Assembly: GCA_014695195.1 (NCBI GenBank)
Contig: JACJNW010000044.1
Span: forward strand, 62,001-126,000
From: Cyanobacteria bacterium FACHB-DQ100
Lineage (GTDB): Bacteria > Cyanobacteriota > Cyanobacteriia > Leptolyngbyales > Leptolyngbyaceae
Direction of reading: 5' to 3'
Length of the DNA: 64,000 bases
How positions within the stretch are numbered: the first letter of the stretch is position 1; the number at the start of each line of letters is the position of its first letter. The notes below the pieces were generated by a model, which was given only the letters and a program-made list of their open reading frames with translations, was not told the origin of the DNA and did not search any database. Shown one piece after another: positions 35,438-64,000 of this stretch. Made by a program: the position numbers and the translations under genes.

Positions 35438-35494
35438 CTACACAGCAAAACGAGTGGGCGATCTGTTTGGATACCCACTCGTTTTGCTGTGTAG
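35438..35494. terminator. Perfect 21-bp bidirectional terminator between gmk and psaL
   Basis: Arms 35438-35458 and 35474-35494 are perfectly complementary over 21 bp with a 15-base loop, among the longest perfect stems in the window. It occupies the gap between the convergent gmk and psaL stops. The stem contains an AAAA/TTTT block, so pairing would end transcription from either side. Confidence 0.85.
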
Positions 35495-49306: not shown

Positions 49307-49410
49307 CTCAAAGATTCTCCTTAGTTTGTAAGAATGCCTTGAATCAACGTATTGGATTCAATGGCGCGGTTAGGTTGGGATAAATTGCGTGAGTTCAACA
49401 GCAAAAATTG

Positions 49411-49539
49411 GCTTCGGTTACGGCTTCGGGTAGCTCCCTAAATCCCCCACAAGTGGGGGACTTTGAAGGTTGAAATTCCTGTCTCGAAGTCCCCCATTTA
49501 TGGGGAATTTAGGGGGCAAGAAGCCGCTCAAACCGAAGC
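49411..49539. repeat. Nested palindromic element (inverted pair of a dispersed repeat)
   Basis: The core contains two copies of a ~33-bp repeat in opposite orientation, each with its own internal GGGGG/CCCCC stem (49436-49464 and 49486-49514). They pair through CCCTAAAT.../...ATTTAGGG. Outer arms GCTTCGGTT (49411-49419) with AACCGAAGC (49531-49539), and GGCTTC with GAAGCC, extend the inverted structure to 129 bp. A third copy of the unit lies in the coding sequence at 63804-63839. It looks like a MITE- or REP-type mobile repeat, in a 416-base gap otherwise empty. Confidence 0.7.
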
Positions 49540-49672
49540 AAGAAGCTCCGTCAAACTAACGCTAAATGATTGCGATCGGGGTGAGCGTAAATGCTCGTAT
49601 TTCACAACGGTATTCACAATCAAAATCGGGGTCGTCTAACCATCGGAAGGCATCTGATCAAGACAATAAAAA

Positions 49673-49701
49673 AAGCGCCCGATCCAGTTGATCGAGCGCT
49701 T
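49673..49701 (-). terminator. Terminator of the HHL1-like gene
   Basis: On the minus strand, arms 49690-49701 and 49673-49684 pair over 12 positions with one G-T pair, and are followed by a T-rich run (TTTTTATTG). It begins 22 bases after the stop codon. Confidence 0.8.
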
Positions 49702-49722
49702 TACCGTAGACTCAGTTTGAAT

Positions 49723-55460: not shown

Positions 55461-55510
55461 TGCTGTTTTAGCGCAAACACAGAAACACTTAAGGCAGCTT
55501 TAATTCAAGT

Positions 55511-55556
55511 AAATAGGGTAGCTGAGCCAGCGAAGTCTAGCCCAGCTACCCTATTT
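55511..55556. terminator. Perfect bidirectional terminator after the subtilase pair
   Basis: Perfect 14-bp arms 55511-55524 and 55543-55556 around an 18-base loop, with AAAT/ATTT ends. It separates the small OB-like gene from the convergent glycine-zipper gene. Confidence 0.8.
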
Positions 55557-55584
55557 AGTTAAGTTAGTTAAGTGGTTTTGCAAG

Positions 55585-62640: not shown

Positions 62641-64000
62641 CTACCCTTGAATTGCTGCGATTACGACCTGAGCAAAGTTGCCCCACGTGGGTTTAATCTG
62701 AAGTCTTGCAAAACATCGCGAACAATTGAGCAAATTCCGATGATCCGCAAACCAAACCGGAGTCAGCGGCATTCGGAACGGTGCATACAAGACAGATTTT
62801 TGGGGTCGATCGAGAAAGCAAGCGTTATGCACAAAGCCTTGACCGGATTGAATATCGTTCGCATCATTGCCTGGATAAGCCCCCCAAGTCAGTTGAGGCA
62901 CGCCGAAATTGGCAGCCGACCAAGCATTCACGCCGATCGCGCCATACTTCAAATTCGCAACCGCATCTTCTACGTTTGACTTCGACAAAATTACGCAGGA
63001 CAAATTGCCCCAAATTTTCTCATTAGCAAAGGGAACGACACGATCAAGAAATTCTTCTGCGGTCGTCGCGTCTAAACTCACCTCAGCCAGCACTCCACAA
63101 AAAGCTTCGTTTTGTAGCGCATAATCATCCTCAATATTCGGAATGAATGTCCACGGTACAATCGCTTCCGTGCGAGTGCCGAAGATTTCAGCTTGGGGAT
63201 AACGATCGAGAAATGCCTGATAGCGCTGTTGCGCCCCTGGATAGTAAGCGTTGCGACTGGGAGTTTTGGCGAGTTCTTCTCGGATTAGATCGAGGAAACG
63301 ATCGCGCAGTTTCCACCCGCTTGCCGTCACAATCACCTGTGCAGCCACACAGTTAAAACTGGCATTGTTGACTACCATACTCGCGACATGACGAGCTTGA
63401 TATCTTAACTCCGACTCAGACCAATCGCCGGGAACAATCAAAACCGGAGTGACACAGCCTAGCTCAGAGGTGATCGGCTTCGGCTGAGGGAGTGATTGAA
63501 CGATCGCTTCATAAGTATGATGCGACCCCGTGATGTGAATGGTGTCAATTTTTGGATGCTGACAAAGAAATGCGCCGACATCAGCGCCACCATAGACAAT
63601 TTGCAGAAAACCATCCGCGATTAACGGCTCAAACGCTTGCTCTAAAAATTTCCCTACATAAGCGTTGACCGGATTCATCTTCAGCAAAACGACTTGATTT
63701 TCAGCAAATAGCTTGTGAATTGCATCGAGCGGCGGCGTTGCTCCGACATTCCCCGCTCCCAAAACCAGCGCAATCCCTCCAGTTTGAGAAACCTGACGAG
63801 ATTCAAAGTCCCCCACTCGTGGGGAGTTTAGGGGGCTTTCTGAGTCTTCAGCCGCACCTCGATCGAGCCAAACTTCCCCCCGAAACCCAAGCCAAAGCAA
63901 TCGATCGAACCAATTATCGGGGAACGCCCGCGCAATATTATTTTCGATTTTTGCAGTTCGTCCTTCGAGTGTTCTGACGATCGCCCGCAGCATCGTCAAG
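62641..64000 (-). CDS. Aldehyde dehydrogenase-family protein, 5' truncated, with an in-frame repeat insertion
   Basis: At least 452 residues of an NAD(P)-dependent aldehyde dehydrogenase fold. The reading frame continues past the end of the window, so the true start is missing. Visible features are GGIALVLGAGNVGATPP (cofactor region), TITGSHHTYEAIVQSL, ELGCVTPVLIVPGDW and the catalytic Cys in NNASFNCVAAQV. The segment ESPLNSPRVGDFESR (about residues 54-68 here) is encoded by a palindromic repeat and is absent from the normal fold. The cupin gene follows 2 bases downstream. The preferred substrate is unknown. Confidence 0.85.
   Translation of the reverse strand, partial: LTMLRAIVRTLEGRTAKIENNIARAFPDNWFDRLLWLGFRGEVWLDRGAAEDSESPLNSPRVGDFESRQVSQTGGIALVLGAGNVGATPPLDAIHKLFAENQVVLLKMNPVNAYVGKFLEQAFEPLIADGFLQIVYGGADVGAFLCQHPKIDTIHITGSHHTYEAIVQSLPQPKPITSELGCVTPVLIVPGDWSESELRYQARHVASMVVNNASFNCVAAQVIVTASGWKLRDRFLDLIREELAKTPSRNAYYPGAQQRYQAFLDRYPQAEIFGTRTEAIVPWTFIPNIEDDYALQNEAFCGVLAEVSLDATTAEEFLDRVVPFANEKIWGNLSCVILSKSNVEDAVANLKYGAIGVNAWSAANFGVPQLTWGAYPGNDANDIQSGQGFVHNACFLDRPQKSVLYAPFRMPLTPVWFADHRNLLNCSRCFARLQIKPTWGNFAQVVIAAIQG
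63804..63839. repeat. Palindromic repeat inside the aldehyde dehydrogenase coding sequence
   Basis: Contains CCCCAC/GTGGGG (63811-63824) and outer AAAGTCCCCC/GGGGGCTTT arms. On the minus strand the sequence matches the units at 49434-49470 closely (CCCTAAA...CCCCAC...GTGGGGGACTTTGA with few differences). It is read in frame and adds about 15 residues to the protein. Confidence 0.72.

Follow-up and report, generated by a model that had tools for sequence, protein, structure and literature searches.

A palindrome in a 64,000-nucleotide cyanobacterial window is very probably the interior of a 176-bp MITE with IS982-type ends

The window, the whole 64,000-nucleotide stretch of DNA analysed here, carries a palindrome at 49411-49539, and the element that contains it lies upstream of a minus-strand reading frame of 174 aa, at a distance of 80 bp. 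The inverted arms of the palindrome are 56 nt each, 75% complementary and separated by 17 nt, and it is the longest among six inverted repeats listed for the window. Folded as single-stranded DNA, it reached -41.5 kcal/mol, whereas 200 shuffles averaged -16.59 (sd 2.8) and none of them was as good; z was -8.90. It holds two 27-nt hairpin units in opposite orientation (core 1, with the structure CCTAAATCCCCC-loop-GGGGGACTT), and with these arms, fold and units the nested palindrome of an inverted repeat pair described in the first-pass annotation was confirmed. Elsewhere in the window, a perfect inverted repeat with 21-nt arms and 15 nt between them is found at 35438-35494, and a further one with 30-nt arms, 83% complementary and 6 nt apart, at 55501-55566.

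The same annotation had taken the 129 bp of the palindrome as the element itself, and here its edges were wrong. The inverted arms reach out to 49387 and 49562, which means that the mobile unit is not the 129-bp stretch; the real element measures 176 bp (Table 1). It was aligned end to end with 12 sister copies of a family termed type B, the window spacer being shorter, and it has the characters of a miniature inverted-repeat element (MITE), being short and non-coding, with terminal inverted repeats and many family copies. Its flanks agree at 5 of 6 letters, or at 2 of 7 in the 7-bp register, and show no exact 7-bp duplication.

Table 1 Features of the palindrome-bearing element, in window coordinates
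Feature	Position	Strand	Basis
Whole element, putative MITE with IS982-type (type B) ends, 176 bp	49387..49562		End pair; end-to-end alignment with 12 sister copies
Left flank TAAATT, candidate decayed target duplication	49381..49386	+	5/6 letters equal to 49563-49568
Left terminal inverted repeat GCGTGAGTTCAAC	49387..49399	+	End pair; sister alignment
Direct repeat AGCAAAAA, left border of the stretch absent in G007	49400..49407	+	G007 comparison
Inner arm GCTTCGGTT, left edge in the first-pass annotation	49411..49419	+	Inverted-arm comparison
Hairpin unit 1 (core 1)	49437..49463	+	Unit pattern
Spacer between units 1 and 2, 23 nt	49464..49486	.	Unit pattern
Hairpin unit 2, opposite orientation	49487..49513	-	Unit pattern
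Inner arm AACCGAAGC, right edge in the first-pass annotation	49531..49539	-	Inverted-arm comparison
Direct repeat AGCAAGAA, right border of the stretch absent in G007	49537..49544	+	G007 comparison
Right terminal inverted repeat GTCAAACTAACGC (plus-strand letters)	49550..49562	-	End pair; sister alignment
Right flank TAAATG, candidate decayed target duplication	49563..49568	+	Compared with left flank

The palindrome was also thought to be repeated in the genome, and this held: used as a query against its own genome, with 40 of the 159 candidates scored, it gave at least 87 matches by BLAST (E <= 0.01), and a strict pattern of the core 1 unit occurred 150 times in the 5.5 Mb (69 forward, 81 reverse) against 0 for the reversed control. 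The strict unit was present in 90 of the 194 genomes searched, own included, with reversed-control columns all zero. Counts within the genus were uneven (own genome, G000, 150; G001, 100; G002, 4; G003, 258; G004, 63; G005, 0; G006, 32; G007, 16), several of the compared relatives being draft genomes. With a looser pattern, 158 units were placed in 93 clusters from 60 own-genome stretches and the window; 52 clusters were inverted pairs, 20 and 12 were singles on either strand, and 9 had other arrangements. One cluster (L119) repeats the window element and was dropped from the class counts. When both ends were required, the remaining 92 clusters comprised 28 of type A, 15 of type B, 4 of type C and 45 with no recognised ends; the 60 stretches were picked for holding a core 1 unit, and these shares are therefore valid for unit-bearing sites only. 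Inside the window element, two 27-nt hairpin units stand in opposite orientation; many cyanobacteria carry repeats of this unit, which is also found within other MITE types.

Several further observations concern the unit itself. Its loops occur in both orientations in the own genome (ATTCT 31 and AGAAT 11; ACGAGT 26 and ACTCGT 8; 137 scored units), as if flipped by small inversions, and the loop end letters are complementary in 136 of 137 units. A second, single copy lies in the window at 63806-63832 on the minus strand and is absent in G006, where the site has diverged. In a distant relative (G160, contig C1, 1507583-1507762), three units are arranged head to tail with 76-bp spacing, unlike the inverted pairs seen here. 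An Rfam search returned nine matches with E values of up to 1, none of which reached its gathering score; several are to animal microRNA families, and we take the nine as chance fits to a hairpin.

Type B elements have the ends ACGTSAGTTCGAC, and most copies are 192-198 bp long (the sister copies about 195 bp). Among 19 scored end pairs, which include alternative pairings of one element, the 7-bp flanks were identical at 7/7 letters in 8 (shifted control 0/114) and at 6/7 in 3 (shifted control 1/114); the other 8 shared just 2 to 4 of 7 letters. Target duplications, for which the earlier annotation had suggested looking, are thus seen in type B at the level of the family. When each cluster was represented by its best pair only, 7/7 flanks were found in 6 of 15 type B clusters, and 3/3 flanks in 25 of 28 type A clusters. 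Growth of each copy from its own template was considered and rejected, as the left and right arms of one element were no more alike (mean 0.694) than arms taken from two different ones (0.734 to 0.736; 15 type B elements).

Empty sites were sought by comparing 15 own-genome sites with relatives, L119 and the window being a single entry. Only sites with an interrupted match were taken, and those at which a relative keeps the element go uncounted. Two of the 15, L070:12267 and L071:4438, were read as near-clean insertions and a third, L070:15239, as compatible with one; most others carry further changes. The sister type B copy at L070:12217-12411 has a near-clean empty site in G007, where TAAAGGA is found once, against twice in the own genome. 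The type A copy at L071:4398-4555 likewise has a near-clean empty site in G007, with TAA on one side of the copy and CAA on the other. The search for empty sites proposed in the first-pass annotation therefore succeeded for sister copies and fell short at the window site, where G007 lacks the inside of the element but keeps both ends.

At the window site, G007 has the same flanks, both end repeats and a 39-bp remnant, with 137 bp absent. The absent stretch runs from AGCAAAAA to AGCAAGAA, 8-bp direct repeats that differ at one letter. The G001 sequence has both flanks in recognisable form, separated by about 60 bp in which no such ends are seen. No clean empty allele of the window site was found in G007, in which the ends are kept, or in G001, which is too diverged for a target sequence to be made out. 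Because the remnant consists of the two element ends, and because bare hairpins of this kind occur at control level, the state in G007 is best read as an internal deletion of an older insertion. The lack of such ends in G001 suggests that this lineage had probably split off before the insertion took place.

The same G007 allele could be read in the opposite direction, with a bare hairpin GCGTGAGTTCGAC...GCCGAACTAACGC present first and a palindrome of about 129 bp entering its loop, AGCAAAAA and AGCAAGAA then being the target duplication. G007 has exactly this bare hairpin, the difference from the own genome amounts to 129 bp plus an 8-bp overlap, and nesting has a precedent in the own genome, where a type A element of 100 bp, flanked by TTA at either end (L073:729-828), lies within another unit cluster. 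We nevertheless consider such a nested insertion improbable, since both arms of the bare hairpin are type B family ends, the supposed target duplication is imperfect, and bare hairpins form no repeat family: with arms 4-34 bp apart, the 8 genomes gave one occurrence in each of G000, G005 and G007, against 0-3 per genome in the reversed control. The idea of bare hairpins as an abundant ancestral target was dropped on the same strict-pattern counts.

A candidate source of mobility for the type B ends was found in the own genome. A search with PF01609 (DDE transposase) gave 9 matches there. One intact element, L206:1413-2430, begins and ends with ACGTGAGTTCGACG and is flanked on either side by TAAAATC, an exact 7-bp duplication; its 303-aa protein scored 257.7 bits with the IS982 model NF033520 (cut-off 130) and 234.5 bits with PF13612. 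Related proteins are present in cyanobacterial records with a species name (90% identity in Phormidium tanganyikae FI6-MK23, for example), and 18 of the 58 genomes searched, own included, have one at E <= 1e-60. Among 80 related transposase loci (50 of 80 named-record matches and 30 from the genome search), the end pair was present in 68 and an exact 7-bp duplication in 28, or in 64 and 27, respectively, when counted as distinct sequences. The letters common to the window element ends and the IS982 element number only about 13, and the abundance of core 1 is not tied to this transposase, as G004 and G006, with 63 and 32 strict units, have none at E <= 1e-60.

From the matching ends and the matching duplication length, the type B MITE was most likely mobilised in trans by an IS982-family transposase. 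Taken together, the feature at 49411-49539 is with high probability the interior of a 176-bp non-autonomous DNA transposon with IS982-type ends, likely moved in this way. The MITE-like, copy-spreading nature first proposed is upheld by the terminal inverted repeats, the target duplications, the near-clean sister empty sites and the matching autonomous element. As a sequence of events, the transposase of a full element elsewhere in the genome would have recognised the short inverted ends, and a copy would have inserted at an AT-rich site with duplication of about 7 bp, in the common ancestor of the own genome and G007; the G007 copy would then probably have lost 137 bp by slippage between the two 8-bp direct repeats.

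The other mobility proposed in the first-pass annotation was of the REP/BIME kind, with two inverted REP hairpins (a REPIN) moved by a REP-associated Y1 tyrosine transposase of the IS200/IS605-like TnpA-REP type. The units are indeed short, abundant hairpins, mostly in inverted pairs (52 of 93 sampled clusters). However, no PF01797 match was found in the own genome (99.92% complete), whereas 5 of 14 control genomes were positive, and target-duplicating ends together with an IS982 element bearing the same ends are DDE-type features, which makes this explanation very unlikely. Least credible of all is a vertically kept, non-mobile regulatory or terminator palindrome, the refuting alternative named at the outset: the strong hairpin does lie between two same-strand reading frames, 80 bp from a start codon, but its inside is absent in G007 and the whole element was not seen in G001, with both flanks preserved; a separate terminator-like hairpin, at about 49668-49702, belongs to the upstream reading frame; and there was no Rfam match at gathering score.

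The IS982-type ends are one of several end sets in which these hairpins are enclosed. Type A ends are TACCAAATTGAT, and their 3-bp duplication was identical in 29 of 33 end pairs (one overlapping pairing, L085, included), 28 of those being TNA; type A sizes are mainly 100 bp with one unit and 156-158 bp with two. Short-gap type A elements without a core numbered 0 in 7 of 8 genomes, with one match in G006. As both type A (3-bp) and type B (7-bp) elements hold core 1, one hairpin is found in two MITE types. Conversely, in sister species type B ends were found around a second hairpin, core 2 (GCCCCGGAATAGAATTCGGGGC), with flanks of 7/7 (CTGGATA) at L357 in G003 and 6/7 at L353 in G001; at L346 and L361 in G007 the ends are present and the flanks match at 2/7 and 5/7. 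Core 2, allowing up to one mismatch, has 188 copies in G006 and 0 in the own genome and G005, and is often arranged as inverted pairs about 102 bp apart (G006; L344, L349, L354 and L363 among others). It also occurs within type D ends (GAGGATGTTTGAAAAG) with TAA on both sides (L350, L360). Among 30 core 2 loci, 19 were without any tested end type and 7 had a type B-like pair, several of these weak.

For type D, PF13586 genes at three of 28 loci examined (L381, L385, L386) are flanked by inverted GAGGATGTTT-like ends that resemble those of type D, two of the three having TTA on either side, and these transposases are likely helpers of type D elements. No transposase partner for type A or C ends was found near 30 PF01609 loci, scanned for types A, B and C, or near the 28 PF13586 loci.

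The combinations seen are type B with core 1 (the CCCCCTAAATCCCCC unit), type B with core 2, core 1 with types A and C, and core 2 with type D. It is conceivable, though we would not call it probable, that cyanobacterial MITEs are modular, with transposase-specific ends and hairpin cores exchanged independently within one genus. Such exchange may proceed by nested core insertion, by a switch of template at motifs held in common (CGCTTCG, for example), or by repeated capture. If MITEs are modular in this sense, the cores would themselves be able to move or recombine, or would be kept as strong hairpins that help the enclosing element to transpose. One hairpin in two MITE types and two hairpins in one end set raise the question of how non-coding transposons swap interiors, and also whether the hairpin itself aids the spread of the element enclosing it. 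What was an unexplained palindrome can now be read as a mobile element whose probable helper lies in the same genome, which makes mobilisation directly testable.

Among known systems, the element resembles IS982-family insertion sequences and MITEs derived from them, as its ACGTSAGTTCGAC ends and the 7-bp duplications match the IS982-family element of the own genome. The full element differs in having a transposase gene and a length of about 1018 bp rather than 176 bp, and in lacking the hairpin unit pair. The small dispersed repeats (SDR) of Nostoc punctiforme, reportedly described by Elhai et al. in 2008, are said to be very short hairpin repeats, often nested, in mini-transposons. By that description, the units here are like them as short cyanobacterial hairpin repeats within mini-transposons. 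The exact core and end strings were found in the open-access literature only in papers on eukaryotic or plant-virus subjects, unrelated by title. Nezha and other MITEs occur in cyanobacteria, according to two reports (PMC3733652, PMC10969869), and are similar in kind, as MITEs in a cyanobacterium. PMC3733652 also describes cyanobacterial REPs with GTAG or CGTC tags as short palindromic repeats in many copies, which the unit resembles in these respects; it differs from them in having no tag beside the stem, judged by eye, and no Y1 transposase in the own genome. The window feature belongs to a known kind, the MITE, and the mixing of ends and cores goes further.
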